From assembly GCA_033816765.1 (NCBI GenBank), contig CM066287.1:186001-250000 (forward strand): 64,000 nt of DNA. The letters run 5' to 3'. The notes under the pieces are model-generated. The model saw only the letters and a program-made list of their open reading frames with translations, was not told the origin of the DNA and made no database searches. Source of the stretch: Nothopassalora personata. Lineage: Eukaryota > Ascomycota > Dothideomycetes > Mycosphaerellales > Mycosphaerellaceae. Within the stretch, counting starts at the first letter, position 1; every line of letters starts with the position of its first letter. Below are positions 1 through 53,697 of the stretch, piece by piece. The position numbers were made by a program, and so were the translations under genes.

Positions 1-357
1 TGGAAGCGCTTATCGCTTCAGCGGAAGAAATTGTTGCAGGAACTGGATACCGCGAAGAGGATTCTTGGTGAAAGGTAGGATGCCTTAATGGAAGCGCATG
101 CAAAGGAAATGCGCCTCCGTAAGCAATTGGATGCGGTTGATCAGAAGGTTGCGGAGGGTCGTTCGTTGGAAGATCGGTTGTTGCTAGACGAGGATCCAGG
201 GGCGCAGGAGTACGCTGTAGCAGACGCGGATCCTAGTGCTCCCAATCTGTCCTTGTCTCCTTGGACCTGGAGTGCTGTCGAAGGTCTTCCGGACGACTTC
301 TGGCTTTCTCCTTCTGGCGAGACGGTGCCGTCGGTGGCTCAGCCGTCTCCTTCGTAA
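1..357 (+). pseudogene. Antisense accessory ORF of LTR-A, C-terminal part, with one in-frame TAG
   Basis: This frame is open from the window edge except for a TAG at 76-78 and ends at 355-357. The part after the stop (88-357) reads as a charged helix, probably coiled coil (MRLRKQLDAVDQKVAEG), followed by an acidic, Ser/Pro-rich tail (LSPWTWSAVEGLPDDFW). Upstream of the stop the frame also reads as helix (RKKLLQELDTAKRI). The RIP-degraded relative at 6.9-7.4 kb encodes the same succession on the strand opposite to its own pol, and its codon at the position of this stop derives from glutamine, so the TAG is probably a C-to-T change. The cysteine clusters expected at the N-terminus would lie outside the window. 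The gene is antisense to LTR-A gag-pol. Function unknown. Confidence 0.6.
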
Positions 358-5897: not shown

Positions 5898-5914
5898 CCT
5901 GAGGGCGTTCAAAG

Positions 5915-6323
5915 TGTTATTGTCTCGTTCCAGGGCTAGTCTCAAAAGAGAGATAAGTCAAGTCACGTGGCGGTATTATTCTTTGGAGAGGCTGAAGCAA
6001 GCTGAGCGAAGATAAATGATAGGAATAAGAGTTGTATTCCAATCAGTGAGATAGTAACATGAGTTGAACGCATCAGAACCATAAGGGTTTCTAGCGTTCC
6101 TAAATACAAAGGAGATAGAGCGTTTGCTCTCCGTGCTCTCCATGCTCTCCATGCTCTCTCGAGATCACCGAGATCAACGAGATCAAGGAGATCACTTCAG
6201 TTGCTCTCTCGGTTCCTTGGTTTTATTCCTGCGGGTGAGAGAGCACTTCTCGGGCGGAAGCGCCCACCAATTGTGGAGGTCTGATTGGTTAGCTTCCTTC
6301 AGCCCCAGATCAGAACCGTAACA
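5915..6323 (-). repeat. 5' LTR of LTR-A
   Basis: On the minus strand it starts TGTTACGGTT (6323) and ends AATAACA (5915). The R-U5 part, 5915-6114, matches the solo LTR at 9817-10016 with one mismatch that I can see. The U3 part, 6115-6323, is unrelated to that copy except for the terminal GAACCGTAACA. U3 contains short tandem motifs: three CTCTCC(A/G)TG-like units and four GAGATCA(A/C)-like units near 6126-6200, which may be activator sites. Immediately inside the element comes CTTTGAACGCC, a possible primer-binding site similar to the one in LTR-C. Confidence 0.85.
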
Positions 6324-31847: not shown

Positions 31848-33487
31848 TGACGAGTACAAGCTTCTAGATTAAAACAATAGGATGGATTAGTAACCCTTAT
31901 GAATTGCACAATGTGTAAGACTATCTAGCTATAGAAACAGTGTAGTATAGGGTGTATATGCTAAGTCCTAACTAATATAGCTACTAGTTACCTAATTTAT
32001 AACACTTTCCCTTTAGACTAACTACTATAAAGGTAGCCTAATTAACTTAATGTTACCTATATTGCTATATTAGTCTCGAATACCTTTACTAGCTTTAGAT
32101 ACTAGGTTTACCGCTATAAGTAAGTATATACTAAGGATAAGGATCTTATCTAATCTACTTATATAAGAGATCTTTATAGACCTACTTTAAGTATATTTTA
32201 GCCTTATCTTTCCGCTTTTAGAAGCGAATAGAAGGTTCTCTTAGCTTAAGAAGACTCTTATACCTAAGCAGTAGCATATAGGCCTTATAGGTATATATAA
32301 AAGAAGCTAGTTCTGTACTAAGTAACTGTCTCTACTTTATACTACTTTATACCTCTCTTAACCCCTCCTAGACTACTATATATACTTATATATACTAATA
32401 ACTACTATATATATATATTCTTAAAGCTTCTTAAGAAGCTTTAGTAAGATATACTATATATATATAATATTTTAAGGGTATTTACTAACTTATAAGTAGT
32501 ATTATAGTAGATATTATTAAGTAGACTCCTATAAACTAACTTAGTAACAATAGTAATGTCTTTAGTAGTAGAACTAGCTCTAGTAACGTTAACAATCTAA
32601 ATAAGCGTCCTCCTAGTAATAGTAGAAAGGGGCTACCTATATCTAGTAAGCTCTCTAAGCATAAGGCCCTTATTAAAGAACTTAGACTAGTTAGGTATAT
32701 TATTAATAATAAGCGTAAGATTACTAAGAAGAATATAACCTTATAGCTTACTAAGGTATCTCTTAAGATTACCTTCTATAAGAAGAAGCTCCTAACTACT
32801 AATGGTAGTATTACTAACCTACTAAACTAGGGTTAGATTAACGCGGCTACTTAGGACTTTAATTATATAATAGTCGAACCTTAAGGCCGTATCGCTAATA
32901 CTATAACTATAAATATTAATAGTAGTTAGAACTACCTTTCTACCTTATAGGCTTCCGCTATAGACTATCTTATTTAGCACTTTAGTAGCGCCTATAACTA
33001 CTATAAGGAGAGATCTAACCTTCCCTTCTCTAGCTACTATACTATTCTAGGATAGTTTAAGGGCTATTATACTAACTACGCTCTTAATAATTACTACGAT
33101 AAGTATAGCTTCTTCTCTCTATAGACTCTATAGTAAGGTACTACCGGTTATACTAGCTGTCTAAGTATAGCTAGTCTATCTAGAACCTACTAGTAGCTAG
33201 GTATAGGTTACTCTTACTCTACTAGTACCGCCTTCTAGGGTAGTATATAAGCTAGTCGCTCTCCTCCTATTATACGTAGTAGTCCTCTACGTAAGGGCTT
33301 CCTATCTCTAGCTCTAGATTCTCCTAGTATAAGTACCTCTAAATACAGTTTTTAGATACTACCTACCTAGCTTATTCCTAGCAATATAGATTAGTGCCTA
33401 AGTATCCCTAGGGCTCCTAGTAATAGTTCTAGAACTATCCTCCTTAAGGTTCGCCTCCTATTCTCTAACTCCCTCTCTTAGGATAAG
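31848..33487 (-). mobile_element. RIP-degraded copia-like element, 3' LTR and part of the interior
   Basis: 31848-32004 is an LTR matching 10707-10861. On the minus strand a purine tract AAAGGGAAAG (from 32014 down to 32005) directly precedes its TGTTATAAATT start, so it is the 3' LTR. The interior to the right is TpA-rich with many stops. From about 32540 to 33480 the plus strand has a long frame with RIP-type stops (KGLPISSKLSKHKALIKEL, KKNITL*LTKVSLKITFYKK) that I cannot place in a known family; it may belong to another element. LTR-B is inserted at 33487. Confidence 0.5.
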
Positions 33488-33684
33488 TGTTAAGGGGATG
33501 TCGCAATGTATAGCACGCCCACGACCTGCCAGTCGTAGATGAACTAATTCTTGCCTTTTGTTCAAGACGCATCGCGCGTCGCAAGGTGTACTCATGCGTG
33601 TCACGTGCGGCTTGGCAGCCGGTCGCGACCGCATGTCACATGCAAGGCCACATGTAGGGGTTAGCCACTGGGCTGCCCCTTACA
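33488..33684 (-). repeat. 3' LTR of LTR-B
   Basis: 197 bp, identical by eye to the LTR at 40216-40412. Ends TGTTAAGG...CCTTACA in plus-strand reading. Identity of the two LTRs means little time has passed since insertion. Confidence 0.95.
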
Positions 33685-33985
33685 ATTGCCTCCCCTCCCG
33701 TGCGAGCTGTCCTCAGCTCGCTAGTTGCTACGTAGAGGCTCCTATGTACTTCCAGAACCATAGTTGCTATGCGGCCCACATGCGGGTTGCGTGCGTGTCG
33801 TCATGTAGGTGTAGGTGAGTGAGGCTTGGTTGCCATGCCGACGCAGCTGGTTAGGGGCATAAAACTCCAGCCCAACCCAGCCCTTTCTCAGCACGCTCCC
33901 CAGCTCATCACCTTCGCCACACCACCACCACGCACCCGCACCGCACCATCGTCGCAAGCGCCTCGCCAGCATCATCATCATCATC

Positions 33986-34756
33986 ATGTCTGCCGTGCCC
34001 TCCTCGCCGCCATTCTCTGGCCGCTCCGCCTCCTCCAGCAGCACCAGCAGCGACAGCACCACCAGCGCCGCAGAAGACGAGCGCCGCCAGGCGGCTCTGG
34101 TGCGCGACGCACCCAGAACGCCTGGTGGTCGCAAGCGACCAGCATCACCCTCGCAGCCACCAACGCCCTCGCCAGCCACCAAGCTCTCGCAGAGAATCAA
34201 CATGTGCATGCGGTGCCTCCCGTACTTCGTCAGGGGTAAGTCTCCACGCGCGTCGCCTGCGATTCGCATGCTAACCACTTGCTAGACGAGGCCGATGACT
34301 GTGATAGTGTCACCACCGGCGAGCTCCTGAAGAAGTGTGGCCGCTGCAGGCGCAGCAAACACAGCTGCGTGCCCAACACCAGCCACGCCATCGCCTCGCT
34401 GGTGAGCCGCCTGCGCGCCGCGCGGTCCCAGCGCGACTTCCTCACGGCCATGATGGGCCAGGCGCCCACAGACCTCCAGCAGCAGGAGCTGGTGGAGCAG
34501 ATCCGCCTGTGTGCCCAGCTGGGCAACGACATCAAGGAGGTAAGTCGCTGCTTCGCTCGTGCGAGTCGACTGCTACTCGCGGGGGAGGGCTCTAGTGCGT
34601 CCCCTGTGCTTCGGCTGACCCTTCCTATAGGCCATCAGGCAGTTCAATGCCTACAAGCACAAGCGTGCCGGGGAGACCCGCATGCGTGCCTCCGCCGCCG
34701 CCGCCACCACTGCCGACCAGGCATTCTTGCCTGAGTCACTGCGTGACGACAACTGA
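33986..34756 (+). CDS. Antisense accessory gene of LTR-B: cysteine-cluster/helical protein with two introns
   Basis: Predicted exons 33986-34235, 34286-34539 and 34631-34756 join in frame to 209 residues. Introns of 50 and 91 bp have GTAAGT donors and TAG acceptors; the first has a branch site GCTAAC. The order is: Ser-rich disordered start, basic region (GGRKRPASPSQ), cysteines at 74, 77, 89, 101, 104 and 111 ending in the cluster CGRCRRSKHSC (CX2CX6C), then helices likely to coil (SLVSRLRAARSQRDFLTAMM; QQQELVEQIRLCAQLGNDIK) and a basic, Ala-rich tail. The cluster recalls zinc-binding DNA-contact modules, but the spacing is not that of Zn2Cys6 factors. It lies inside an LTR element, opposite to gag-pol, between pol and the 3' LTR. 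A RIP-degraded copy exists in the second LTR-B element. Role unknown. Confidence 0.75.
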
Positions 34757-34890
34757 GGCGCTCGCCTCACACGCTGCTCGCGGGCTCCTCGCCTGCTACC
34801 ACTCTGCGTGGCCCCTGGTGGGCGCGCCACTCTTCAGCTTTTGTTTTGTTTATAGTTGAGAAAGGTTTTGTTTGTGCTCCAGTGCCAGTC

Positions 34891-35397
34891 TCATTTGCTT
34901 CTCCTTGACGCCTCATAGCCGGCTACCATGCGATCCGCATTCGCGAGGCCCTCCGCCGGTTCCCAGCTGTTGTACTCCTCTGGCCAGTCCTTCCACTGGA
35001 CTAGATACTGCAGCTTGCCCTTGCGCTTACGCCTATCCAGCACTGCCTCTACCTCATACTCTCCGTCCTCATTAGCTAGAGGGGGTACGGGTCCATCCTC
35101 ATCGCTACCGATATACGGCTCGAGGAGAGAGACATGGAAGACGTTGTGGAGCCTTGAGTCGGCTGGTAGCGCTAGGCGGTACGCCTGCGAACCGACAGCG
35201 TCCGTAATGCGGTATGGGCCGATGAACTTCGGACCCATCTTCTTCTTTGGCACTGCCAACTTGAGGTTCTTCGTTGACAACAGGACTAAGTCACCTACGC
35301 GGTAGGTCTTGGCTTGGTGGGTCTTGTTGTAGTAGCGAGCCTGGCTTTCTGCTGCAGCCTTCCATCGCTCCTCGAGTGTAGCGCGTAGTTTTCGCAT
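34891..35397 (-). CDS. LTR-B Pol C-terminus: integrase end and chromodomain, frame-shifted from the rest
   Basis: 168 residues beginning MRKLRATLEERW. They contain the integrase C-terminal part (YRVGDLVLLSTKNLKLAVPK, KFIGPYRITDAVGSQAYRL, HNVFHVSLLEPYIG) and a chromodomain (YLVQWKDWPEEYNSWEPAEG). In the other copy of the family (47608-54202) this part is in the same frame as the rest of pol. Here a run of ten C (35430-35439) breaks the frame: the other copy has six G and an A at this place. It is therefore the end of the 35412-38984 polyprotein rather than a separate gene. Confidence 0.9.
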   Translation of the reverse strand: MRKLRATLEERWKAAAESQARYYNKTHQAKTYRVGDLVLLSTKNLKLAVPKKKMGPKFIGPYRITDAVGSQAYRLALPADSRLHNVFHVSLLEPYIGSDEDGPVPPLANEDGEYEVEAVLDRRKRKGKLQYLVQWKDWPEEYNSWEPAEGLANADRMVAGYEASRRSK

Positions 35398-35411
35398 GCG
35401 ACTCGCAGCTG

Positions 35412-38400
35412 TTACCGCTGCTGGTACTTCCCCCCCCCCTGGGTCTCGTCTCGAGATCCAGTTGGTGCAGGGGCAATCTCAGGTCGCCAACCGTGCGCTA
35501 TTTCGAACGGACTCATCCGCAGTGTTGGGTGGATGCTGTTATTAGCTGCGAATTCAGCAACTGCAAGCCACTCAGCCCACTCAGTTTGATTGTCACTGCA
35601 GTAACAACGAAGGTATTGTTCGAGGGTTTGGTTTGCCCTCTCAGTTTGGCCGTCAGTCTGAGGGTGAAAGGCCGTGGATAGCTTGCGCTTCACACGCGCC
35701 TCGAAGCAGAAGTCACTCCAAAACTGACTAGTGAAGACCGGACCTCGGTCGCTCACTATGCCTGACGGGACACCATAGTGTCGCACGACTTCGTCTCGCA
35801 GGAGCCTCGCAAGCTCCACGGCTGTGCAAGTCTTCGTCGTCGGGATGTACAAGCTCATTTTTGAGTAGCGATCGACTATCACTAGGATCGCATCATACAC
35901 GCAACCGGCTCGCGTGCTTGGAGGTAGGTCCGTAATGAAATCCATGGTGATTTCCTGCCACGGTCGCTCCGGTCTAGGAAGCGGTTGCAGCTCGCCGTAG
36001 GGTCGATGGCGCCTCGCCTTCGAACCCTGGCAGGTTCTGCAGGCTTGGACGTATTGTTTCACGTCCGTGCTAAGTGAGTCCCACCAATAATTACGTCGCA
36101 ACAGCTCTTCAGTCTTGGTCCTTCCAAAGTGACCCGCGAGGACGTCGTCGTGGTGCATGCGAATCAGATGCGACCTGATTGCGTGATCCCTGGGTACCAC
36201 GATCGCGTCTCCGCAGTACACAAGGTCATCCTTCACATGCCATCCCTTGGCGTCCCTCGCGCTTGGCGCCTGCGCCAAGCATGCGACACACTGGTCGTCT
36301 TGCTGCTGCGCGATCTTCATCAAGAGTGGGATCAACTCACCCGTCGAGCTGTAAGCTTGACCCTGTATCACTGCAGCGCACACTGCTGCTGGTAAAGACG
36401 GCTTGTCTTGATGGGGAAGGTCACCTCTCCGCATTGCCATCGCCGCGCCTATGTCGCCCTGCATCGCCTCGCAGGTGGCAAGCACGCGCTTCACCGTCGG
36501 CTCGCTTGTCCCTTCCAGAGACTCCTTCCAGAAAGACAGCTTACTTTGCAAGGTAGGCAGCAAGTTCGAAGTTTGTTGCGTTATGGCTGCGTAGTCACTG
36601 CGTCTCGAAGGCGCGTCGGCTGGGTTAGTCTTACCCGGCCGATGCTCCACTACAAAATCAAAAGACTGCAGGAACGTAGCCCATCGAGCTTGCCGCCCAT
36701 TCAGCTGCTTTACTGTCATGAAGCCCTGTAGGTTAGCGTGGTCGACTAGCACTCGCACCGCATGCGTAGCGCCCTCCAAGTATGGCCTCCAATGCTTGAA
36801 AGCCTCAACCACTGCAAGTAGCTCCTGATCGTGCGTCTCGTAGTTGCACTCAGCTGGTATCATCTTGCGTGAATAGAACGCGATGGGATGCCACTCAGCA
36901 CCAAACAATTGGGATATGATACCTGCGATCGCGAAACCTGAGGCATCCGTCTCGACTCGCGTGCGCAGCGCAGGATCGAAGTGCCTAAGTATTGGTGCAC
37001 CTAAGAATCCGGCCTTAAGCTGTCGAAACGCCTGCTCTTCGCTTAAGGTCCACGTGAGAGGGCCGTGCTTCTTGCCGTCCTTGGATCCCTTTAGCAGGTC
37101 CGTTAGGGGCTTGCAGACCCTTGAGTATCCTTCTATAAAACGCCGGTAGAAGTTGCAAAACCCAAGGAAGGACTGGACCTCATGAAAGGTCGTAGGTGTA
37201 GGCCATTCCTCGATAGCGGCTACCCTGCTCCTGTCCATCGACACGCCTGCGGCGCTCACGACAAACCCAAGGAACTCTGCACTCTCCTGGAAGAAGTGAC
37301 ACTTCTTAGGGTTTGCGAACAGGGCAAACTTTCGTAGCCTCTCCAGCACCGCGCGTACGGCTCGCACGTGTGCCTCACGCGTCTCGCTGTAGATGAGGAT
37401 ATCATCTAGGTAGACCACGCAAATGTCATCAACTAAGCCGGTCAGCGCCTTGTTGATATACCCTTGAAAGGTTGCCGGTGCGTTGGTTAACCCGAACGGC
37501 ATCACCAGGTACTCGTAGTGTCCGTATCGCGTGCGAAACGCAGTCTTCCACTCATCGCCTCGCTTAATAGGGATACGATGGTAGGCGTCCTTCAAATCGA
37601 TTGTAGTGAAGAACCTGGAACCTGATAGCCTATCTAGCGTCTCGCTGATTAGGGGCAGGGGGTATCGGTTCTTCACTGTAATCTCATTCAGGCCTCTGTA
37701 ATCAACACAGAGCCTAAGAGTGCCATTCTTCTTTGGCACGAACAGGATAGGCGCACCCGCCTCGCTTGCGGACCGCCTAATCCACCCCTTCTCCATTGCT
37801 TGCGCAAGGTACTCCTTCAAGGCCTCCAACTCAGTCAAGGACTGGTGGTACAGCGGCTTGAAAGGGGGTTTCTTTCCTTCAACGAGATCAATCGCATGCT
37901 CAACCCCGTCGGGCATCTTGCGCTTCGCCTGCTCATTAGGTGCGTATACATCTCGGAAGTCTGCAAATTCTTCAGGCCACGAGGGGCCCTCTCCTTCAGG
38001 TACTGCTGCAGCAATAGCCCGAACACTCATCGCATAAACCTGCTTTGAGCTCTCGAGATCCTCAAGGAACTCGCGTGCGTCACGCTGCTGAACCGCAGGC
38101 GTCTCTGCACCGTAGTACCACTGGTCATCCTTATCGGCCTTCACTATCCGATTACGATGCCGCCAGGGTCTACCCAAAATCACTGATGGCCTACCCATAG
38201 GCACCGCGTAGCAGATGGCGTCACTCACGCGCTCTACTCCCGCGTCATCAGCGAGTCGCAGCCGAACCGCAAAGGCGCCGTAGCAATACCCTGGGTCATG
38301 CGCATACGACTCTAACTTCGGCAGCCTTGCCCCATCAATGGGTTGCATTTGATGTCGGAGTACATACTCATACGACACTAGGCTGAGATCCGCACAGTCA

Positions 38401-38984
38401 TCCAGGAGAAACGTGGCCTCGCGAAAGCCCTCACGAGTCTCGACTGCGCCTCGCAAGTGACGCGCTGGACACGCATCCACTCGCCTCAAGGGGTCGACTT
38501 CAGGAAAACTCGGACTCAGGAGCGACCCACTTCTGGTCCTCTGCCTTTTCCCTGGTCGCTGCGATGGACACACATCCACTCGCCTCAAGGGGTCGACTTC
38601 AGGAAAACTCGGACTCAGGAGCGACCCACTTCTGGTCCTCTGCCTTTTCCCTGGTCGCTGCGATGGACACACATCCACTCGCCTCAAGGGGTCGACTTCA
38701 GGAAAACTCGGACTCAGGAGCGACCCACTTCTGGTCCTCTGCCTTTTCCCTGGTCGCTGCGATGGACACACATCCACTCGCCTCAAGGGGTCGACTTCAG
38801 GAAAACTCGGACTCAGGAGCGACCCACTTCTGGTCCTCTGCCTTTTCCCTGGTCGCTGCGATGGACACACATCCACTCGCCTCAAGGGGTCGACTTCAGG
38901 AAAACTCGGACTCAGGAGCGACCCACTTCTGGTCCTCTGCCTTTTCCCTGGTCGCTGCGATGGACACACATCCACTCGCCTCAA
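35412..38984 (-). CDS. LTR-B Pol polyprotein (protease to integrase core)
   Basis: A 1190-residue frame. The first 170 residues are translated tandem repeats (RRVDVCPSQRPGKRQRTRSG), an unusual N-terminal extension. Then follow a protease-like region (FLLDDCADLSLVSYEYVL, with a degenerate active-site motif), reverse transcriptase (VVYLDDILIYSE), RNase H (VETDASGFAIAGI), an integrase zinc module (HHDDVLAGHFGRTKTEELL ... CRTCQGSK) and core (TMDFITDLPPS, IVSDRGPVFTSQFW, FHPQTDGQTERANQ). It ends early because of the C10 run, beyond which the chromodomain continues in another frame. Pol is in the -1 frame relative to gag. Confidence 0.93.
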   Translation of the reverse strand: MRRVDVCPSQRPGKRQRTRSGSLLSPSFPEVDPLRRVDVCPSQRPGKRQRTRSGSLLSPSFPEVDPLRRVDVCPSQRPGKRQRTRSGSLLSPSFPEVDPLRRVDVCPSQRPGKRQRTRSGSLLSPSFPEVDPLRRVDVCPSQRPGKRQRTRSGSLLSPSFPEVDPLRRVDACPARHLRGAVETREGFREATFLLDDCADLSLVSYEYVLRHQMQPIDGARLPKLESYAHDPGYCYGAFAVRLRLADDAGVERVSDAICYAVPMGRPSVILGRPWRHRNRIVKADKDDQWYYGAETPAVQQRDAREFLEDLESSKQVYAMSVRAIAAAVPEGEGPSWPEEFADFRDVYAPNEQAKRKMPDGVEHAIDLVEGKKPPFKPLYHQSLTELEALKEYLAQAMEKGWIRRSASEAGAPILFVPKKNGTLRLCVDYRGLNEITVKNRYPLPLISETLDRLSGSRFFTTIDLKDAYHRIPIKRGDEWKTAFRTRYGHYEYLVMPFGLTNAPATFQGYINKALTGLVDDICVVYLDDILIYSETREAHVRAVRAVLERLRKFALFANPKKCHFFQESAEFLGFVVSAAGVSMDRSRVAAIEEWPTPTTFHEVQSFLGFCNFYRRFIEGYSRVCKPLTDLLKGSKDGKKHGPLTWTLSEEQAFRQLKAGFLGAPILRHFDPALRTRVETDASGFAIAGIISQLFGAEWHPIAFYSRKMIPAECNYETHDQELLAVVEAFKHWRPYLEGATHAVRVLVDHANLQGFMTVKQLNGRQARWATFLQSFDFVVEHRPGKTNPADAPSRRSDYAAITQQTSNLLPTLQSKLSFWKESLEGTSEPTVKRVLATCEAMQGDIGAAMAMRRGDLPHQDKPSLPAAVCAAVIQGQAYSSTGELIPLLMKIAQQQDDQCVACLAQAPSARDAKGWHVKDDLVYCGDAIVVPRDHAIRSHLIRMHHDDVLAGHFGRTKTEELLRRNYWWDSLSTDVKQYVQACRTCQGSKARRHRPYGELQPLPRPERPWQEITMDFITDLPPSTRAGCVYDAILVIVDRYSKMSLYIPTTKTCTAVELARLLRDEVVRHYGVPSGIVSDRGPVFTSQFWSDFCFEARVKRKLSTAFHPQTDGQTERANQTLEQYLRCYCSDNQTEWAEWLAVAEFAANNSIHPTLRMSPFEIAHGWRPEIAPAPTGSRDETQGGGKYQQR

Positions 38985-39057
38985 GGGGTCGACTTCAGGA
39001 AAACTCGGACTCAGGAGCGACCCACTTCTGGTCCTCTGCCTTTTCCCTGGTCGCTGC
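38464..39057 (-). repeat. Six 99-bp tandem repeats at the gag-pol junction of LTR-B
   Basis: Six nearly identical units of 99 bp (33 codons), each containing CATCCACTCGCCTCAAGG and CCTTTTCCCTGGTCGCTG. The length keeps the pol frame, giving a repeated EVDPLRRVDVCPSQRPG motif, while the gag frame stops in the first unit. The degraded copy at 47608-54202 has a single unit (about 48970-49060), so the array expanded in this lineage. ORFs on the plus strand over the array (38457-39604) are shadows. Confidence 0.93.
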
Positions 39058-40178
39058 CCTTCTCAGTCAGAGCCTTCGCAGCGTCTACCCTGCGAACCGC
39101 TTGCGCGCCACGGTCCTTCCACAGGTGCCTGTTCGGGCAATCCGTCTTAATGTGACCCTTCTTATGGCATCCATAGCACTCCGCTTTGGTCCTATCAAAG
39201 GTCACAGACGATCCGCCGGCGTCCCGCTGGTAACTCGCACCCGGGTCGCGCGACGCCTGACTATGCTTCTGCTGCTTCGAGCCACGATCGCTTCGCCCTT
39301 GGTCGCCCTCAGTCTCTCGCCTGCGGCGACCATGCTGCCCGCGGTCGTGCCCTCCGCTGCCACGCTCCGTGCTTTCAATGCGCGAAGCCAGGATCACCAG
39401 TTCCTCTCTGGTTGTTGGGATGTCATGAAACTTGACGATTGCGGACCGCAGGCCAGGCGCAAGCTTAGCGAGCATATGTCGCACGCGTTGCGCCTCCGTA
39501 TAGTCCCCCAACTGATCCTCCATGACATCCAGCTTCAGTCGCAAACTGACGCACTGTCTGGTTGTCCTTCTGTTTCACCGCCTCATACTCCAACATCACG
39601 TTGAGCACGCGGTTCACAGGATCACCGCATGCGTCTCGACAGAACTCCTCAAAGTCCTGGTATGTATACCCTTTAAGGTCAAGGACGCTATGGTTGGCGT
39701 GCCATCGCTCACTTGCCTCTCCGCTTAGGTACATAACCCCATACAGGACCTTTGACTCGTTCGTCACATACGTGCCGCCTGAGAGGGCAAAGACAAGAGA
39801 GAGCTCCCTTAGGAATACCCGTGCTTTCTTGATCGAGTCCCCTCTAAAAGGCGTAGGTTCTTTGAGACGCAAACGTGTCGCATGCGATGCGACCGCGCCT
39901 CGAGCTGCGATATCATCGTCAGTTACTACAGATGGAGGAGGGGGAGGGGGAGTAGGGGATAGTTCTCCGCCGGATTCGCCCTGAGGGTCCGCCGGCGGCA
40001 CGCTTGCGTCCCGCAAGATCTCCAACTGTTCAATCTCCCTCTGTATCTCCTTCTCCTCAACCTCTGCCCGAAGGGCATCCCTCCTTGCGACTAAGGCTGC
40101 ACGCCTCGCTTGTTGCTGGGCCCTAGGGCTCAGGGGAGCCGCAAGCGTAGCGCTGCTGTCGTCGCGTTCGGACTCCAT
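39011..40178 (-). pseudogene. LTR-B Gag with CCHC knuckle, one-base insertion
   Basis: Gag begins at MESERDDSS (40178; an ATG at 40196 is in frame upstream), 38 bp inside the 5' LTR. It contains coiled N-terminal helices (RRAALVARRDALRAEVEEKE), a retrotransposon gag domain (IKKARVFLRELSLVF), then switches frame near 39536 to VMEDQLGDYTEAQRVRHML and the knuckle CYGCHKKGHIKTDC. The degraded copy of the family reads through this site in one frame, so this copy has one additional base. Either it is inactivated or the base is an assembly error. It ends GPEVGRS at the tandem repeats. Confidence 0.85.
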
Positions 40179-40215
40179 GGCGTGTATGGATTGCAACGAA
40201 GAGAAGAATTAGAAC

Positions 40216-40412
40216 TGTTAAGGGGATGTCGCAATGTATAGCACGCCCACGACCTGCCAGTCGTAGATGAACTAATTCTTGCCTTTTGTTCAAGACGCAT
40301 CGCGCGTCGCAAGGTGTACTCATGCGTGTCACGTGCGGCTTGGCAGCCGGTCGCGACCGCATGTCACATGCAAGGCCACATGTAGGGGTTAGCCACTGGG
40401 CTGCCCCTTACA
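40216..40412 (-). repeat. 5' LTR of LTR-B
   Basis: Identical by eye to 33488-33684. On the minus strand it ends CCCTTAACA and is followed by GTTCTAATTCTTCTC, the probable primer-binding region, before gag. Confidence 0.95.
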
Positions 40413-40428
40413 ATAAGGTTACTACTAA

Positions 40429-41385
40429 TGTCTACTAACCACCCTATGTAGGCCTATCCGAGTTGTGGTAGTATGGAGCGGTGCTTACGTAAGCAGGGGT
40501 ATTTGCCGGTCCCGGGACCGGGAAATTAGGTCACGTAACGAGTAGCGTAGTAGCTAGATAAAACAAGAGGATTAGCGGACCCTAAACCCCTATGCCCTCT
40601 ACTCGAGAGGCATAAATTGAATTGTTGCCTTAATGCTACGCTTACAATGCTTAACTGCGTAGTATATATCTTAATAGCTATACTAGGTCCTACTAGCTTA
40701 CCTAAATGTCTAATTAAACCTAAATGAAATTAAGGCAAGTTAGACCTAAGGGACCCCCTCTAAACCTAAGGTTAATCCAACCTATTAGTCGTTAATATAT
40801 CCTCCCCTATTACGAACCTGTCCTTAGGTTCTAAAGTAGTAAGCCCGGGCACTATAGGTAGCGTAGTTAGTCGCTACGAGCTAAGGTAGTCTTATAGTAG
40901 TAATGTCTACTAACTACCCTATGTAGCCCTGTCCGAGTTGTAGTAGTATAGAGCGGTGCTTACGTAAGTAGGGGTATTTGCCGGTCCCGGGACCGTGAAA
41001 TAAAGTCACGTGACGAGTAGCGTAGTAGCTAGATAAACAAGAAGATTAGCGGACCCTAAACCCCTATGCCCTCTACTCGAGAGGTATGAATTGAATTGTT
41101 ACCTTAATACTACGCTTACAATACTTGACTGCGTAGTATATATCTTAACAGCTATACTAGGTCCCGCTAGCTTACCTAAATGTCTAATTAAACCTAAATG
41201 AAATAGGGGCAAGTTAGACCTAAGGGACCCCCCCCCCTCTAAACCTAAGGTCGACATAACTAAACCTAAGGTTAACACAACTAATTAGTCGTTAATATAT
41301 CCTCCCCCATTACGAACCTGTCCTTAGGTTCTAAAGCAGTAAGCCCGGGCATTATAGGTAGCTTAGTTAGTCGCTGTAAGCTAAG
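40429..41385. repeat. Two tandem LTR-like units of 475 bp
   Basis: Units start at 40429 and 40904 with TGTCTACTAAC(C/T)ACCCTATGTAG and are highly similar over about 475 bp. The second is interrupted at its end by LTR-C and finishes at 43755-43775 (CTAAGGTGGTCTTATAGTAG). The first 369 bp of the unit are also found at 61407-61773. Each has TTACGTAAG and the palindrome CCGGTCCCGGGACCG. Changes between the units are mostly RIP-type transitions. Best read as LTRs of a gypsy-type family, in tandem without an interior. Confidence 0.7.
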
Positions 41386-41701
41386 TGTTACGGTTTAGAC
41401 CAATCACCGAAGAGCAGGAGCGATTCGGGTCTAACAAGCGGATCGCACACATCACGTGGCTACGACGAGAGCGATAACCCAGAGGGATCGGGCTCGTGAT
41501 AGCGCGACTCATGGTGGCCGATCGCACTCGTGCGGAGGCACTATATAGACGACGCTCTTTTACAAGTAGATAGGAGCTTCGTGCTCAACTCATTTCAAGT
41601 ATACACCATATACTGTTTGGGACCACTACCTTCTCAACGAGTCAGAGACATCACTGCAAAGATCCAAGCCCAGTTGGGATAACGTACAGCGGTTCCTAAC
41701 A
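41386..41701 (+). repeat. 5' LTR of LTR-C
   Basis: 316 bp with TATA element CTATATAGA at 41541-41549. Identical by eye to 43434-43749. Followed by ACTTTGAGCACC, similar to CTTTGAACGCC after the LTR-A LTR, the likely primer-binding site. Confidence 0.95.
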
Positions 41702-41727
41702 ACTTTGAGCACCACCACCAGGGCCCT

Positions 41728-42726
41728 TTGCATATGTCTGGGAGAGACGCTACCCGGAGTCCGTCACGACAACAGCCACAGTCAACTGGCATCACGGAAC
41801 GAATGAGCGAAATGTCGATTACAGGAAGCAGCAAGAACAACAACACTCCTATGGGTATGCTGAACCCATTGGACCACCACCGTGCACCTAAGGTGTCTAC
41901 GCCGGAGACGTTCGACGGGACCAAGGACAAACTGGAGGCTTTTCAACTGCAGGTTCAGTTGTACCTTCACTTCAACGCACACCAGTTTCAAGGCGAGGCC
42001 AGCAAGGTCTTGTACGCCGCATCCTTCCTACGAGGAAAAGCAGCTAGAGGATTCCGACCATACCTCAAGGACTGGCTACACAACCAGGGCGAGGGAGAAA
42101 CACCGAAAACGGAAACTCGAAAAATTTTCCACGACTACGACGAGTTTGAGACGAAACTCGATGATCTATACGGGATACCAAATGAGGAGGTATACGCCGA
42201 CCGACATATCCGACAACTTCGACAGACTACTTCTGTAGCGCTGTACGCCTCAGAATTCCAAGGATATGCCGCCGACCTGGAATGGAACGACGCAGCTTTG
42301 CGATCGCAGTTCTACCTCGGGCTGAAAGACAACGTCAAAGCCGAACTATCCCGAAACGCCAGCGTCGTTACGCTAGGGGCGATGATCAAGGCAGCAAAGG
42401 AGATCGACGAAAGGCTCCAGGAGTTGAGGTACGACCGACACGTACAGCCTGGATACCAGAGACCCGCCGCGGGCGGAAGAGGGGGCTTCAAGGCCAGAAG
42501 TCAGGACCCTAATGGTTACGGAGACCCAATGGAATTGGACGTAACGGAACGTAGGACAGGAAGGGGGCTGAAGAGCAAAGGTTCCACCTGCTACGTATGT
42601 GGCGAGCAAGGCCATTTTGCAAGGAACTGCAAGAAAAAGAACATGGTTAGCCGCGAGTTCAACGCAATGATTCGCGAAGAGAATACATACCAGGAATGCG
42701 AGAACTTCTTCTCGAAATCTGCCTAG
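41728..42726 (+). CDS. LTR-C Gag with CCHC zinc knuckle
   Basis: A frame of 332 residues starting 27 bases after the LTR. It has a retrotransposon gag domain (LEAFQLQVQLYLHFNAHQF, ASFLRGKAARGFRPYLKDW, IRQLRQTTSVALYASEFQGY) and the knuckle CYVCGEQGHFARNC, then ends shortly after at FFSKSA. It is shorter than LTR-A Gag because the acidic C-terminal part is missing. Intact Gag in an element without pol suggests it supplies or joins particles formed with an autonomous partner. Confidence 0.92.
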   Translation: MHMSGRDATRSPSRQQPQSTGITERMSEMSITGSSKNNNTPMGMLNPLDHHRAPKVSTPETFDGTKDKLEAFQLQVQLYLHFNAHQFQGEASKVLYAASFLRGKAARGFRPYLKDWLHNQGEGETPKTETRKIFHDYDEFETKLDDLYGIPNEEVYADRHIRQLRQTTSVALYASEFQGYAADLEWNDAALRSQFYLGLKDNVKAELSRNASVVTLGAMIKAAKEIDERLQELRYDRHVQPGYQRPAAGGRGGFKARSQDPNGYGDPMELDVTERRTGRGLKSKGSTCYVCGEQGHFARNCKKKNMVSREFNAMIREENTYQECENFFSKSA

Positions 42727-42836
42727 CAGAAACAACCTGAGGACAGCAAGGCATCAAACAGCGGCTTCTTGATTTGATGACCTAGGACACAGAAGTCAAC
42801 AACGCAAACGGACGAATGACCATTGGATACCACAAC

Positions 42837-43397
42837 TTACGAGGGATGGCCATCCGGCCATGAAAACGGAGAAGCAACGCCGGCTTCAAGAAGATCGTTC
42901 TCTAAACCAGGGAAGTCCGACAACTCAGGATCGTTGGGGTCGAACTCGGTGTTGGCCGCCAAGTGGCGCACCTGTTCCTCTACCTTCTTGTTGTTTTCGT
43001 CGCGAACCTTCCTGTTTCGTTCGATGCGATAACGGATTTCGTCTACTCTACGAAGGAGGGCAAGGGCCTGCGCGGTTATCCTTTCCGCGTCCTTCTCGTC
43101 CCTCACGATCTTCTCGGACAACTCATCGACGACACGGTCCAACCGAACAAGAGAGGTCGAAACGCAGGAATTGCCGTTGCGCGTGCATTTGGCGCAGGAC
43201 ATGATGGAGAAGTCGGCGATGACAACACAACAGGAGTTGGTTTTGGCGCAGTTCTCGCAGGGATATGGCGGGAAGAGAGGATTCGCAAAGATACGTGCGA
43301 GACGACGATTGCGGGATGAAGTGCTCGTAGATGACATGGCGAAGTTGCAATTGCGGAGGGAATTTGGACGAACACCGCTCTTTATGACTAATGACAC
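42837..43397 (-). CDS. Antisense accessory ORF of LTR-C: double CX2CX6C cluster and coiled coil
   Basis: A frame of 186 residues on the strand opposite to gag. After a basic start (RNRRLARIF) come two clusters, CENCAKTNSCC (residues 47-57) and CAKCTRNGNSC (68-78), each CX2CX6C, ten residues apart. A charged helix likely to coil follows (VRLDRVVDELSEKIVRDEK, ALALLRRVDEIRYRIERNRK), and then an acidic tail. The architecture matches the antisense genes of LTR-A relatives and LTR-B. Translation could start at residue 21 (MSSTSTSS). The end lies about 110 bp from the gag stop, tail to tail. Zinc binding is inferred from the cysteines; role unknown. Confidence 0.75.
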   Translation of the reverse strand: MSLVIKSGVRPNSLRNCNFAMSSTSTSSRNRRLARIFANPLFPPYPCENCAKTNSCCVVIADFSIMSCAKCTRNGNSCVSTSLVRLDRVVDELSEKIVRDEKDAERITAQALALLRRVDEIRYRIERNRKVRDENNKKVEEQVRHLAANTEFDPNDPELSDFPGLENDLLEAGVASPFSWPDGHPS

Positions 43398-43433
43398 GTG
43401 ATCGCTGGGACATCGATCTTAGGAGGGGGATGG

Positions 43434-43749
43434 TGTTACGGTTTAGACCAATCACCGAAGAGCAGGAGCGATTCGGGTCTAACAAGCGGATCGCACACAT
43501 CACGTGGCTACGACGAGAGCGATAACCCAGAGGGATCGGGCTCGTGATAGCGCGACTCATGGTGGCCGATCGCACTCGTGCGGAGGCACTATATAGACGA
43601 CGCTCTTTTACAAGTAGATAGGAGCTTCGTGCTCAACTCATTTCAAGTATACACCATATACTGTTTGGGACCACTACCTTCTCAACGAGTCAGAGACATC
43701 ACTGCAAAGATCCAAGCCCAGTTGGGATAACGTACAGCGGTTCCTAACA
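43434..43749 (+). repeat. 3' LTR of LTR-C
   Basis: 316 bp, identical by eye to 41386-41701, preceded by a polypurine tract and followed by the target duplication CTAAG. Confidence 0.95.
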
Positions 43750-47607: not shown

Positions 47608-48999
47608 TATAAGGGGTAGCCTAGTAGCTAACCCTTACATGTAGCCTTACATATAATATACGGTCGCGACCGGCTACTAAGCCGTACGTAACACGCATAC
47701 GTACACCTTGCGACGCGTAATGCGTCTTAAACAAAAGGTAAGAATTAGTTTATCTACGACTGGAGGTCGTGGGCGTGCTATACATTACGACATCCCTTAA
47801 TAGTTCTAATTCTTCTCTTCGTTACAATCTATACACGCTATAGAGTCCGAACGCGACGATAGCAGCGCTACGCCTACGGCTCCCCTAAGCCCTAGGGCCT
47901 AGTAATAAGCGAGGCGTGTAGCCTTAGTCGTAAGGAGGGATGCCCTTCGGGTAGAGGTTAAGGAGAAGGAGATATAGAGGGAGATTAAACAGTTAGAGAT
48001 CTTACGGGACGTAAGCGTGCCGCCGGCGGACCCTTAGGGCGAATCCGGCGGAGAACCATCCCCTACTCCCCCTCCTCTATCTATAGTAACTAACGATAAT
48101 ATCGTAGCTCGAGGCGCGGTCGCGTCGTATACGACACGTTTACGTCTTAAAGAACCTACGCCTTTTAGAGGGGACTCGATTAAGAAAGCACGGGTATTCC
48201 TAAGGGAGCTCTCTCTTATCTTTACCCTCTTAGGTGGCACGTATGCGACGAACGAGTTAAAGGTCCTATATAGGGTTATGTACCTAAGCGGAGAGGCAAG
48301 TAAGCGATAGTACGCTAACTATAGCGTCCTTAACCTTAAAGGGTATATATACTAGGACTTTAAGGAGTTCTATCGAGACGTATACGGTAACTCTATAAAC
48401 CGCGTACTTAACGTAATGTTAGAGTACGAGGCGGTAAAATAGGAGGATAACTAGATAGTGCGTTAGTTTACGACTAAGCTAGATGTTATAGAGGATTAGT
48501 TAGGGGACTATACGGAGGCGTAACGCGTGCGACACATGCTCGCTAAGCTTACGCCTAGCCTACGGTCCGTAATCGTTAAGTTTTATAACATCCTAACAAC
48601 TAGAGAGGAACTAGTAATCCTAGCTTCGCGCATTAAAAGTACGGAGCGTAGTAGCGGAGGGTACGACCGCGGGCAGTATAGTCGCCGTAGGCGAGAGACT
48701 AAGGGCGACTAAGGGCGAAGCGATCGTAGCTCGAAGTAGTAGAAGCATAGTTAGGCGTCGCGCGACCCGGGTACGAGTTACTAGCGGGACGCCGGCGGAT
48801 CGTCTATAACCTTCGATAGGACTAAAGCGGAGTGCTATAGATGCTATAAGAAGGGTCACATTAAGACGGATTGCCCGAATAGGCACCTATAGAAGGACCG
48901 TAACGCGTAAGCGGTTCGTAGGGTAGACGCTACGAAGGCTCTAACTAAGAAGGGCAGCGACTAGGGAAAAGGTAGAGGACTAGAAGTGGGTCGCTCCTA

Positions 49000-51900
49000 A
49001 GTCCGAGTTTTCCTAAAGTCGACCCTTTAAGGCGAGTAGATGCGTGTCTAGCGCGTTACTTACGAGGCGTAGTCGAGACTCGTAAGGGCTTTCGCGAGGC
49101 TACGTTTCTCCTAGATGACTATACGGATCTTAGCCTAGTGTTATATAAGTATGTACTCCGATATTAAATGTAACCTATTAATAGGGTAAGGCTACCGAAG
49201 TTAGAGTCGTATACGCATAACCTAGGGTATTGCTACGGCGCCTTTACGGTTCGGCTACGACTCGCTAATAACGCGGGAGTAGAGCGCGTAAGTAACGCTA
49301 TCTACTACGCGGTACCTATAGGTAGGCCCTTAGTAATTTTAGGTAGACCCTAGAGGCACCGTAATCGGATCGTAAAGAGCGATTATAAGAACTAGTGGTA
49401 CTACGGTATAGAGACGCCTACGATTTAGTAGCGTAACGTACGCGAGTTCCTTAGGGATCTCGAGAGCTTAAAGTAGGTTTATACGATAAGTATTCGGGCT
49501 ATTACTATAGCAGTACCCGAAGGAGAGGGCCCCTCGTAGCCTAAAGAATTTGTAGACTTCCGAGATATATACGTACCTAATAAGTAGGCGAAGCGCAAGA
49601 TGCCCGACGGGGTTAAGTATGCGATTAATCTCGTTAAAGGAAAGAAACCCCCTTTTAAGCCGCTATACTACTAGTCCTTAACTAAGCTAGAGGCCTTAAA
49701 GGAGTACCTTACGTAAGCAATAGAGAAGGGGTGGATTAGGCGATTCGTAAGCGAGGCGGGTGCGCCTATCCTATTCGTGCTAAAGAAGAATAGTACTCTT
49801 AGGCTCTATGTAGATTATAGAGGCCTAAATAAGATTATAGTAAAGAACCGGTACCTACTGCCCCTAATTAGTAAGACCTTAGATAGGCTATAGGGCGCTA
49901 GGCTCTTTACTATAATCGACCTATAGGATGCCTACTACCGTATTCCTATTAAGCGAGGCGATAAGTAGAAGACTACGTTTCGCACGCGATACGGACACTA
50001 CGAGTACCTAGTAATACCGTTCGGGTTAACTAACGCACTAGTAACCTTTTAAGGGTATATTAATAAGGCGCTAACCGGCTTAGTTAATAACATTTACGTA
50101 GTCTACCTAGATAATATCCTTATCTACAGCGAGACGCGTAAGGTACACGTGCGAGCCGTACGCGAAGTGCTTACAAGGCTACGGAAGTTTACTCTATTCG
50201 TAAACCCTAAGAAGTGTCGCTTCTTCTAGAAGAATGCCGAGTTCCTAAGATTTATCGTAAGCGTCGTAGGCATATCGATAGATAGGAGTAGGGTAGCCGT
50301 AATCGAGGAATAGCCTACGCCTACGAGTTTTTATAAGGTTCAATCCTTCCTAGGATTCTATAACTTCTATAGGCGCTTTATCGAAGGGTACTCGAGGATT
50401 GCGAAGCTATTAATAGACCTACTAAAGGGATGTAAGAATAGTAAGAAGCAAGGGCCTCTTATATAGTCCGCTTACGAGGAGTAAGCGTTCTAACGGCTAA
50501 AAGCTAGGTTCCTCGGAGCACCTATCCTAAGGCACTTCGATCCTTCGTTACGTACGAGGGTTAAGACGGATGCCTTAGGCTTTACGATTGTAGGCATTAT
50601 CTCTTAGCTATTTAGGACTAAGTAGCATCTAATTGCCTTCTATTTACGTAAGATAATACTAGCCGAGTGCAACTACGAGACGCACGATTAGGAGCTACTT
50701 ATAGTAGTTAAGGCTTTTAAGTATTAGAGGCTATACTTAGAGGGCGCTACGTATACGGTACGAGTACTAGTCGACTACGCTAACCTATAGGGCTTTATAA
50801 TAGTAAAGTAGCTAAATAGGCGGTAAGCTCGATAGGCTACGTTCCTACAGTCTTTTAATTTTATAGTAGAGCATCGGCCGGGTAAGACTAACCTAGCCGA
50901 CGCGCCTTCGAGACGTAGTAACTACGTAGCTATAACGTAATAAACTTCGAACTTGCTACCTACCTTATAAAGTAAGCTATCTTTCTAGAAGGAGTCTCTA
51001 GAAGGGATAAGCGAGCCGACGGTAAAGCGCGTACTTACTACCTACGAGGCGATGTAGGGCGACATAGGCGCGGTAATAGTAGTGCGGAGAGGTAACCTTC
51101 CCTATTAAGATAAGCCGTCGTTACTAGTAGTAGTGTGCGCTATAGTAATATAGGGTTAAGCTTATAGCTCGACGGGTAAGTTAATCCTACTCTTAATAAA
51201 GATCGCGTAGTAGTAAGACGACTAGTGTATCGTATGCTTAGCGTAGGCGCTAAGCGCGAGGGACGCTAAGGGATAGTATATAAAGGATAACCTTATGTAC
51301 TACGGAGACGCGATCGTAGTACCTAGGGATCACGTAATTAGGTCGCATCTAATTCGCATATACTACGACGACGTCCTCGCGGGTTACTTTAGAAGGACTA
51401 AGACTAAAGAGCTATTATAACGTAATTATTAGTAGGACTTACTTAGTACGGACGTAAAGCAATACGTCTAAGCCTATAGAACCTACTAGGGTTCGAAGGC
51501 TAAACGCTATCGACCCTATAGTAGACTATAACCGCTTCCTAGACCGGAGCGGCCGTAGTAGGAAATCACTATAGATTTTATTACGGACCTACCTCTAAGT
51601 ACGCGAGCCGGTTACGTATATAATGCGATCCTAGTAATAGTCAATCGCTACTTAAAAATGAGCTTATATATCCCGACGACGAAGACTTGTATAGCCGTAG
51701 AGCTTACGAGGCTCCTACGAGACGAAGTCGTACGACACTATAGTGTCCCGTTAGGCATAGTAAGCGACCGAGGTCCGGTCTTCACTAGTTAGTTTTAGAG
51801 TAACTTCTACTTCGAGGCGCGTGTAAAGCGTAAGCTATCTACGGCCTTTTACCCTTAGATAGACGGCTAAACTAAGAGGGTAAACTAAACCCTCGAACAA

Positions 51901-52620
51901 TATCTTCGTTATTACTATAGTAACAATTAAACTGAGTAGGCTAAGTAGCTTACAGTTACTAAATTCGTAGCTAACAATAGCATCTAGCTAACACTACGCA
52001 TAAGTCCGTTCGAGATAGCGCACGGTTAGCGACCTAAGATTGCCCCTACACTAACTGGATCTCGAGACGAGACCTAGGGGGGAGAAGTACTAGTAGCGGT
52101 AATAGCTGCGAGTCGCATGCGAAAACTACGCGCTATACTCGAGGAGCGATAGAAGGCTATAGTAGAAAGCTAGGCTCGCTACTATAATAAGACCTACTAA
52201 GCTAAGACCTACCGCGCAGGTAACTTAGTCCTATTATTAACGAAGAACCTTAAGTTAGTAGTGCTAAAGAAGAAGATAGGTCCGAAGTTTATTAGCCTAT
52301 ACTGCATTACGGACGCTATCGGTTCGTAGGCGTACCGCCTAGCGCTACTAGCCGACTTAAGGCTCTATAACGTCTTCTATGTCTCTCTCCTTGAGCCGTA
52401 TATCGGTAGCAATAAGGATGGACCCGTACCCCCTCTAGCTAATAAGGACGGAGAGTATAAGGTAGAGGTAGTGCTAGATAGGCGTAAGCGTAAGGGTAAG
52501 CTATAGTATCTAGTCTAGTAGAAGGACTAGCTAGAGGAGTATAATAGCTAGGAACCGGTAGAGGGCGTCGCGAATGCGGATCGCATAGTAGCCGACTATA
52601 AGGCGTTAAGGAGAAGTAAA
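49000..52620 (+). pseudogene. RIP-killed LTR-B pol
   Basis: Translation follows the young copy closely: TPTTFHEVQSFLGF appears as a decayed [14 protein letters not shown], and the RT site reads YLDNIL in place of YLDDIL. Tryptophan and glutamine codons are replaced by stops throughout. Near 52070 the frame passes through GACCTAGGGGGGAGAAG without the shift found in the young copy, so it is the better guide to the original reading frame at the integrase end. Confidence 0.85.
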
Positions 52621-52799
52621 TAAGACTAGCATAGGAGCACTAGAGTATAAACAAAACCTTTCTTAACTATAAACAAAATAAAAGCTAAAGAGTAGCGCGC
52701 CTACTAGGGGCTACGTAGAGTAGTAGTAGGCGAGGAGCCCGCGAGTAGCGTGTAAGGCGAACGCCTTAGTTATCGTTACGTAGTAACTTAGGTAGGAAC

Positions 52800-53697
52800 G
52801 CCTAGTCGGCGGCGGTAGTATTAATGTTCTACGCCTATAGAAACTAGGACTACGGTTAGTAGGGTACACGTATATAAGGAACATGCGACTTGCGGCGCGG
52901 CCGAGTTCGAACAGCTTATTAAGGGCGCGGTTCTACTCCTACTAGAGCGCGAGGGCTTCGGCGGCGGGGGCGGCGGCAGTAGTAGCGGCGGTAGAAGCAC
53001 GTATACGGGTTTCCCCGGTACGCTTATGCTTATAGGCATTAAATTGCCTAATAGCCTATAGAAAGGGTTAGCCGAAGTATAGGAGACGTACTAGAGCCCC
53101 CGTACGCGAGTAGTAGTCGACTCGTAGGAGCGAAGTAGCGACTTACCTCCGTAATGTCGTTACCTAGCTAGGTACATAGGCGGATCTACTCTACTAGCTC
53201 CTACTACTAGAGGTCTATAGGCGCCTAGCCTATTATAGCCGTAAGGAAGTCGCGCTAGGAGCGCGCGGCGCGTAGGCGACTTACTAGCGAGGCGATAGCG
53301 TAGCTAGTGTTAGGCACGTAGCTATGTCTATTACGCCTATAGCGGCTACACTTCCTTAGGAGCTCGCCGGTAGTAACACTATTACAGTTATTGGCTTCGT
53401 CTAGTAAGTGGTTAGCATATAAATCGTAGGCGGCGTATGTAGAGACTTACCCCTAACGAAGTATAGGAGGTACCGTATATACATATTGATCCGCTACGAG
53501 AGCTTAGTAGCGGGCGAGGGCGTTAGTAGCTACGAGGGTAATGCTAGTCGCTTACGACCACTAGGCGTTCTAGGTACGTTACGCACTAGAGCCGCCTAGC
53601 GGCGCTCGTCTTCTAAGGGGCTAGTAGTACTATCGCTACTAGTACTACTAGAGGAGGCGGAGCGGCTAGAGAATAGCGGTAAGGAGGGCCCGTCTAA
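52800..53697 (-). pseudogene. RIP-killed antisense accessory gene in the old LTR-B copy
   Basis: The minus strand aligns with the young gene at 33986-34756. The block GGCGAGCTCCT(A/G) and the cluster region (young copy CGRCRRSKHSC) are readable near 53300-53400, as is a CAT/AAT repeat at the start (about 53698). Splice sites are at corresponding places. After the YKHKR motif the old copy continues with an additional stretch of roughly 50-60 codons not present in the young copy. This shows the gene is a fixed part of the family rather than a chance passenger of one copy. Confidence 0.75.

Follow-up and report, generated by a model that had tools for sequence, protein, structure and literature searches.

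A two-intron antisense gene in a chromovirus of Nothopassalora personata, and related elements in which antisense genes and U3 appear to be exchanged together

How can a gene with introns persist inside an element that multiplies through an RNA copy of itself? The question is raised by a stretch of 64,000 nucleotides from Nothopassalora personata (assembly GCA_033816765.1, contig CM066287.1, positions 186,001 to 250,000; hereafter the window), in which an LTR retrotransposon, here called F1 (33488-40412), carries a predicted spliced gene on the strand opposite to gag-pol. F1 lies on the minus strand between a 3' LTR (33488..33684) and a 5' LTR (40216..40412) of 197 bp each; as originally predicted, the LTRs are identical and a perfect 5-bp target site duplication, ATAAG, adjoins both sides (33483-33487 and 40413-40417). 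The interior holds, all on the minus strand, a gag region (39011..40196), pol with reverse transcriptase, RNase H and integrase (35412..38984), a pol C-terminus with SH3_Tf2-1 and chromodomain matches (34891..35397), and a polypurine tract (PPT) placed by eye at 33685..33698 (sense GGGAGGGGAGGCAA). The domain order and C-terminal chromodomain found with Pfam, together with a match to Ty3 (E 2e-134), identify F1 as a Ty3/gypsy chromovirus, and its identical LTRs, target duplication and PPT are those of such an element. In the window copy gag and pol (34891-40196) are split between frames, with pol and its C-terminus in different ones, despite the identical LTRs and the intact antisense gene. 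A 99-bp tandem repeat (38462-39055) lies upstream of the reverse transcriptase domain, and the length of F1 copies varies largely by steps of about 99 bp. Elsewhere in the window are an older F1 copy that has diverged and runs the opposite way (47608-54203, LTRs about 94% identical), and a tandem repeat of about 475 bp that adjoins F1 (40420-41385) and has another similar copy at 61404-61782.

The antisense gene sits on the plus strand, in the interval from pol to the 3' LTR. Its three exons (33986..34235, 34286..34539 and 34631..34756, the last with the stop) join into 209 codons plus stop, and every coordinate of the original prediction, with its introns of 50 and 91 bp and consensus ends, was confirmed. 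Exon 1 encodes a Ser/Pro-rich segment, a basic GRKRP motif and cysteines 1-2 of a cluster, and exon 2 contains four of the six cluster cysteines. Both introns are on the plus strand; intron 1 (34236..34285) reads GTAAGT..CTAAC..TAG and intron 2 (34540..34630) GTAAGT..CTGAC..TAG, with branch-like GCTAAC and GCTGAC, respectively, recognized by eye, as was a candidate TATA-like sequence, CATAAAAC, upstream of the ATG (33858..33865, plus strand). A strict splice consensus applied to the real region returns the 209-residue two-intron model, and the structure is unlikely to have arisen by chance, because none of 300 dinucleotide-block shuffles of the region gave any two-intron model. Third-codon GC is 0.83 in this gene compared with 0.615 in pol. 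Searches of protein collections found no relatives of the 209-residue protein, and it has no Zn_clus match in Pfam.

The behavior of the introns across copies bears directly on the question. Searching the genome (54.5 Mb, 40 contigs) with the 209-residue protein gave at least 201 matches (1093 first-look candidates, 150 scored), and a 30-mer from the cysteine cluster has 28 exact copies. We compared 21 complete copies, the window copy and 20 others; LTR pairs are identical in all 21, the 5-bp target duplication is perfect in 19, the spliced antisense frame is intact in 20 and the 398-codon gag frame in 13. Both introns are kept in all 21 complete copies and in all 39 decayed copies aligned, and 30-mers spanning either exon-exon junction are absent from the genome at up to three mismatches, a search that junctions altered by RIP could escape. 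Intronless retrocopies were rejected on the same grounds. Two apparent spliced copies were also dismissed: one (L067) has lost part of exon 1 and kept both introns, and the other (L001) has lost 34222-34312, that is, intron 1 with exon sequence on both sides, and is a deletion. At a further locus (L068, C7:2932054-2936282), two incomplete F1 copies meet head to head, and both retain a portion of the antisense gene. The persistence of introns in an antisense cargo gene, as predicted, is thus borne out by the copies, and the proposed reason, that the introns survive since the genomic RNA does not correspond to the antisense strand, is itself inferred and fits the copy data.

Is the 209-codon frame maintained by selection? 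The original prediction had proposed dN/dS across copies as a check, for which the near-identical F1 genes are unsuited. We instead used changes in the 39 RIP-altered antisense regions, of which 20 were taken from all along the match ranking and 19 chiefly from among its more divergent entries; C>T and G>A changes were excluded, and expectations came from type-matched placement. Among distinct non-RIP coding changes, 24 of 63 are silent against 11.0 expected (P ~0.0002); for changes seen in at least two copies the values are 16 of 39 against 6.5 (P 0.0006), and for those in at least three, 10 of 28 against 4.7 (P 0.012). Exon 1 has 18 silent and 17 replacing changes, compared with 9/27 and 5/30 in the shifted frames, while exons 2 and 3, with 4/11 and 2/10, show no frame-specific silent excess relative to shifted frames. 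Coding selection is therefore shown for exon 1, the only exon to depart from the shifted frames, and the remainder of the gene is compatible with it. Distinct non-RIP changes per site are fewest in exon 2 (0.059), followed by intron 1 (0.080), intron 2 (0.099), exon 3 (0.133), exon 1 (0.144) and the leader (0.161). Exon indels, leaving out a CAT run at the ATG, measure 9, 6 and 3 bp, all multiples of three, and sit by eye in repetitive or low-complexity sequence; those in introns measure 1, 1, 1, 2, 2 and 5 bp, none a multiple of three.

F1 does not stand alone in this genome, since an antisense gene is found in the same place in eleven other element types (F2-F5 and F7-F13), opposite gag or pol, two of them in the window and unnoticed in the original prediction. 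F2, the second chromovirus of the window, is 47% identical to F1 over 470 residues of the reverse transcriptase part of pol. Its pol (460-3876) and gag (3879-5945), both from Pfam, and its 409-bp 5' LTR (5915..6323, target duplication CCTAT by eye) are on the minus strand, with the other LTR just before the window; the antisense frame, on the plus strand, begins 206 bp before the window, continues over 1..357 and gives a six-cysteine, coiled-coil protein. The window copy has one in-frame stop, and intact copies exist elsewhere. Using an intact F2 product (187 residues), we obtained at least 150 matches (607 candidates, 150 scored), with intact frames at 55%, 41% and 38% identity among the matches listed. 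F7 (41386-43749) is a gag-only element with a 5' LTR (41386..41701, target duplication CTAAG), a gag with Retrotrans_gag and a CCHC knuckle (Pfam; 41728..42726) and a 3' LTR (43434..43749) identical to the first, all on the plus strand; on the minus strand, a single uninterrupted frame (42837..43337) encodes 166 residues with a six-cysteine cluster, a coiled coil and a C-terminal SPFSW. This protein returned 95 genome matches, including intact families at 63, 62, 57, 44, 39 and 28% identity.

In the stretches read around family members (one member per family, two for F5/F6 and for a further antisense frame, G1), every antisense gene lies opposite the 3' end of gag or pol. The 62% family (F8b) was left out of this reading; it is known from matches alone and is perhaps an F8 variant. 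F13 comes from one stretch with a partial frame, whose best match is F5 (33%, E 9e-15). In F3, F5, F7, F8, F9, F11 and F12 the antisense gene comes directly after the end of gag and no pol intervenes, and the intact antisense frames read in the other types are uninterrupted, compared with the two introns of F1. Single in-frame stops interrupt the antisense gene in 10 of 24 near-identical F2 copies and in each of the two G1 copies read, and the gene is therefore dispensable in single copies. Six F8b antisense genes (G000:C12:1355698-1366475) are spaced by exactly 2056 bp, which suggests a tandem array of elements with shared LTRs.

The antisense strand of F2 also contains a tRNA-like sequence (397-474) that overlaps the end of pol; it scores 50.6 bits against the Rfam tRNA model, is given a CUA anticodon and a mismatched anticodon stem by ARAGORN, and is present in the five further F2 copies that were aligned, followed by extra sequence in four. 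Three observations led us to abandon the idea that it might act as an amber suppressor of the antisense in-frame stop: gag and pol do not share one frame, the anticodon stem contains mismatches, and some copies of the antisense gene are intact. Similarly, F2 copies about 50 bp longer do not reflect presence or absence of an intron, the extra bases lying beyond the open reading frame, after the tRNA-like sequence.

The antisense products of F2-F5 and F7-F13 form one protein family. Its members combine a basic N-terminus with six cysteines and a coiled coil, and most also have a C-terminal SP..W-like motif. The products of F2-F5 and F7-F12 can be aligned, and in a nine-member alignment leaving out F3 the nine invariant columns include all six cysteines; their spacing in the ten types is C-x2-C-x6-C-x8 to 11-C-x2-C-x6 or 7-C, with a wider gap between cysteines 2 and 3 in F13. 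In leave-one-out tests, the five members used reached 92-132 bits, whereas the decoys peaked at 22-24. The F1 protein has its cysteines in the same order and scores 5.8 bits against the family profile, a value reached by 51 of 300 cysteine-keeping and 3 of 300 plain shuffles; with F13 added to the profile, it scores 3.2 bits and 192 of 500 shuffles reach that score. The profile gives no support for counting the F1 protein as a homologue of the others, its score not exceeding that of cysteine-preserving shuffles.

The six-cysteine spacing and the neighboring coiled coil of the family resemble fungal Zn2Cys6 (GAL4-type) regulators (Zn_clus, PF00172), but members other than F11 fall below the Pfam cut-off or have no match. 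Four of nine members are matched at E up to 1; F11 is a borderline match that equals the gathering cut-off (21.0 bits for both) and none exceeds it, and the gathering score is not reached by F1 (209 residues), F2, F4, F7, F8 or F12. In a search of the family profile against PDB, coiled coils were best and LAC9, GAL4, AlcR and LEU3 also appeared, none below E 0.01, with LAC9 and GAL4 weakly matched at E 0.035-0.05. A single-sequence prediction for the F7 protein, poor overall (mean pLDDT 65, pTM 0.34) and in the cysteine region, contains a helix over residues 67-130 with block pLDDT of 79-98. The dN/dS check did yield an answer for these related genes. Nine pairs were computed by NG86, three of them with saturated dS, and the six measurable values are 0.16 (F7-F8), 0.22 (F8-F9), 0.23 (F10-F11), 0.26 (F8-F10), 0.28 (F2-F4) and 0.39 (F2-F5), all rough because dS is 1.5-2.7. 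Judged from these comparisons of sequence, the six-cysteine family is under purifying selection.

How are these antisense genes distributed among the elements that carry them? The pol ends of F2 and F4 match at 96.4% over 920 bp, and their LTR sides away from the PPT at 98% over 217 bp, about 202 bp of it within the LTR; the region between contains unrelated U3 sequences and antisense genes of about 50% identity. F7 and F8 have identical gag over 207 residues and 165 bp of LTR at 99.4%, with unrelated U3 and antisense proteins at 63%. In each pair, identity is 98-99% on the R/U5 side of the LTR and 96-99% in pol or gag. Across F3, F5, F7, F8, F9, F11 and F12, gag-end stretches aligned alone are 93-99% identical, and the antisense proteins 23-63%; where gag end and antisense gene were aligned together, as for F7-F8, F7-F9 and F8-F9, identity is 81-84%. 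A 501-bp gag query found 22 copies at the top score and 18 that, judging by score, have one or two differences (40 scored of 231 candidates). By position, the 22 belong to F12 (eight), F8 (six), F9 (three), F7 (two), F3, F8b and F13 (one each), so that one identical gag is paired with at least six different antisense genes; the antisense gene itself was read in the window F7, in the F12 copy at C1:1546030 and in the F13 copy, the others being assigned by position. Eight of the 18 near-identical copies were assigned (F9 four, F12 two, F3 and F8b one each) and ten were not. Among 40 copies of F2 pol listed at 97-100%, 11 are with F2, five with F4 and 24 with an antisense gene not identified; two of these 24 were read, and both carry G1 with a stop in frame. 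The possibility that the F1 engine is likewise joined to another antisense gene was rejected; only one of 27 near-identical pol 3' ends is without the F1 gene, a copy that ends at 34830, the remaining 26 having been compared by eye with the match lists.

From these alignments, the antisense gene, PPT and U3 have been exchanged as one block between near-identical engines (gag or gag-pol), which suggests that the antisense gene and the promoter region constitute an exchangeable unit of self-control. The linkage may be positional alone, because gene and U3 adjoin at the 3' end of the RNA, where a single template switch would swap both. We found no description of U3-linked exchange of antisense genes in the open-licence literature searched, as far as its passages were available.

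An additional feature connects F1 with the other types. In the sense RNA of F1, a stem-loop 5' of the PPT (33702..33721, minus strand; GCGAGCTG-AGGA-CAGCTCGC) has counterparts adjoining the PPT in all of the 12 types tested, a set with F1 and without F13, with the PPT anchors of F10-F12 placed by hand. The arms are perfect, 5-8 bp long and mostly different in sequence between types, with one set common to F7-F9 and another to F3 and F5. The loop contains GGA or GGG, and for each type a match was obtained in 0-2.25% of shuffles. Because the loop motif was defined after the first cases had been seen, more weight rests on the arms. The stem is formed in the minimum-energy fold of a 75-nt stretch in nine of the 12 types, not in F8, F9 or F11. 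Its presence ties the F1 module to the others, though the F1 protein is not so tied. Many overlapping short palindromes occur in U3/leader regions of F3, F4, F5 and F12, among them TGATCA in F4 and F12 and CTCTCGAGAG in F5 (L079, L080 with L090, L082, L089), which are candidate binding sites. They are absent from the regions of F7, F9 and F10, U3 being partly covered for several types, and in F11 and G1 they are the stem-loop itself. CGG-N-CCG was rejected as a common U3 motif, occurring in only five of 12 regions.

Antisense accessory genes of LTR retrotransposons are already known. The statement in the original prediction that no fungal system of this type had been described is incorrect. 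Boty-like elements of Botrytis cinerea carry an antisense gene, brtn (Zhao et al., 2011, as cited in PMC7264820, PMC8365987, PMC4227169, and PMC5987419), and in the available passages of these papers their gag-pol has a chromodomain (PMC4227169), brtn lies between pol and the 3' LTR and is also present in Sclerotinia (PMC7264820), a Monilinia transcript resembles BRTN (PMC5987419), and one BcGypsy1 consensus is without the brtn start but has a putative ORF (PMC8365987). By description, the only level at which they were compared, brtn and the F1 gene are alike as extra antisense genes at the same site of fungal chromodomain LTR elements. A survey of fungal LTR elements (PMC3248453) uses none of the terms antisense, additional ORF and third ORF. 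Plant elements with antisense ORFs include Grande (gene23), RIRE2, Retand (TRP28), and PvRetro13 (PMC7264820; PMC11963269), and the passages available describe the same place and orientation as in F1, presence in most copies of a family and a proposed nuclear or DNA-binding role. The plant genes differ in their hosts, and no U3-linked exchange is described in those passages; the word intron is absent from the main text of both papers. TRP28 (PF04195) is not among the Pfam matches listed for F1, nor among the 25 of 54 Pfam families listed for nine F2-F12 members. According to the available text of PMC7264820 the function of such accessory genes is not known, and that of PMC11963269 names HTLV-1 HBZ. 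The gag-only types F3, F5, F7, F8, F9, F11 and F12, with no pol between the end of gag and the antisense gene, recall a different class. Non-autonomous, gag-only LTR elements are known as the TR-GAG type; unlike these, the fungal elements here carry an antisense gene, and their antisense/U3 block varies.

What might the antisense proteins do? The gene structure and its copies, block exchange, the stem-loop and the purifying selection acting on the family are established here, and from them we give a probability of about one half to the reading that the F1 frame is a spliced accessory gene of a wider antisense/U3 block system whose protein regulates its own U3. HBZ of HTLV-1 is the model: it is spliced, encodes a bZIP protein and acts on the HTLV-1 LTR. 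Likewise, the antisense gene would be expressed and spliced in vivo, and its product may be a nuclear, dimeric, DNA-binding regulator that would act on the U3 promoter with which its own gene travels. HBZ is similar as an antisense gene at the 3' end encoding a coiled-coil nuclear regulator of the sense promoter, but differs in being a bZIP without the cysteine cluster and in belonging to a retrovirus, and we claim no homology. The F1 protein would do the same job as the family despite undetectable homology.

That undetectable homology is also what one would see if the F1 gene were an unrelated capture, for example of a host gene, alike in place alone. Its two introns and its high third-codon GC relative to pol point the same way, and we regard a capture, which is compatible with the other readings, as a real possibility that falls somewhat short of an even chance, given that place, kind of PPT-side stem-loop and cysteine order are all shared with the other types and no host relative was noticed among the genome matches listed. 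If only an antisense transcript mattered, controlling copy number through dsRNA with the ORF incidental, the in-frame stops of some copies and the missing frame signal in F1 exons 2-3 would be expected; the low dN/dS of the related genes, the silent excess in F1 exon 1 and the frame intact in 20 of 21 copies make this very improbable.

Other readings give the protein or its block a different task. VANC of plant VANDAL elements is the model for proteins that counter silencing or host defence, diversify in an arms race and act on the chromatin of the element. The diversity of the family, its linkage to non-coding sequence in the element that carries it and the many young copies in a genome heavily affected by RIP would suit such a role, but nothing about the proteins is chromatin-specific, selection is purifying on average rather than positive and many copies are still hit by RIP; we think it unlikely. 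Somewhat more unlikely is that engines change their U3/PPT end to suit different helpers or promoters, with the antisense gene no more than a passenger inside the 3' block. The exchange of a single contiguous 3' block and the several swapped types that are without pol, and presumably helper-dependent, are consistent with this, but hitch-hiking alone would not maintain purifying selection and six invariant cysteines. A nucleic-acid chaperone or packaging factor that binds the element RNA, possibly at the conserved stem-loop, would account for the cysteine cluster, the basic N-terminus and the GGA/GGG loop seen in all 12 types tested, yet the stem-loop is common to types with quite different proteins, a CCHC knuckle is already present in F2 and F7 gag, and the coiled coil with Zn2Cys6-like spacing points, weakly, to DNA, so that this role is quite improbable.

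Regulation of U3 by the protein encoded next to it, the reading we prefer, has a bolder extension that we offer only as a doubtful suggestion: U3 and antisense gene may form a specificity cassette like the immunity region of a temperate phage, in which each protein would recognize its own U3 only and swaps of whole cassettes would evade relatives or the host. If true, retrotransposons would fall into 'immunity groups' set by the cassette and not by gag-pol phylogeny. Action on the protein's own U3 becomes testable with the roughly one dozen natural combinations in this genome, in which a few near-identical engines are joined to different antisense/U3 blocks. Moreover, the PPT-side stem-loop is a conserved addition to the known features of these elements, and classification by pol or gag alone hides the exchange of control regions. 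As for the question posed by the F1 locus, antisense placement suggests a possible route by which an intron-bearing gene may persist in a retroelement.
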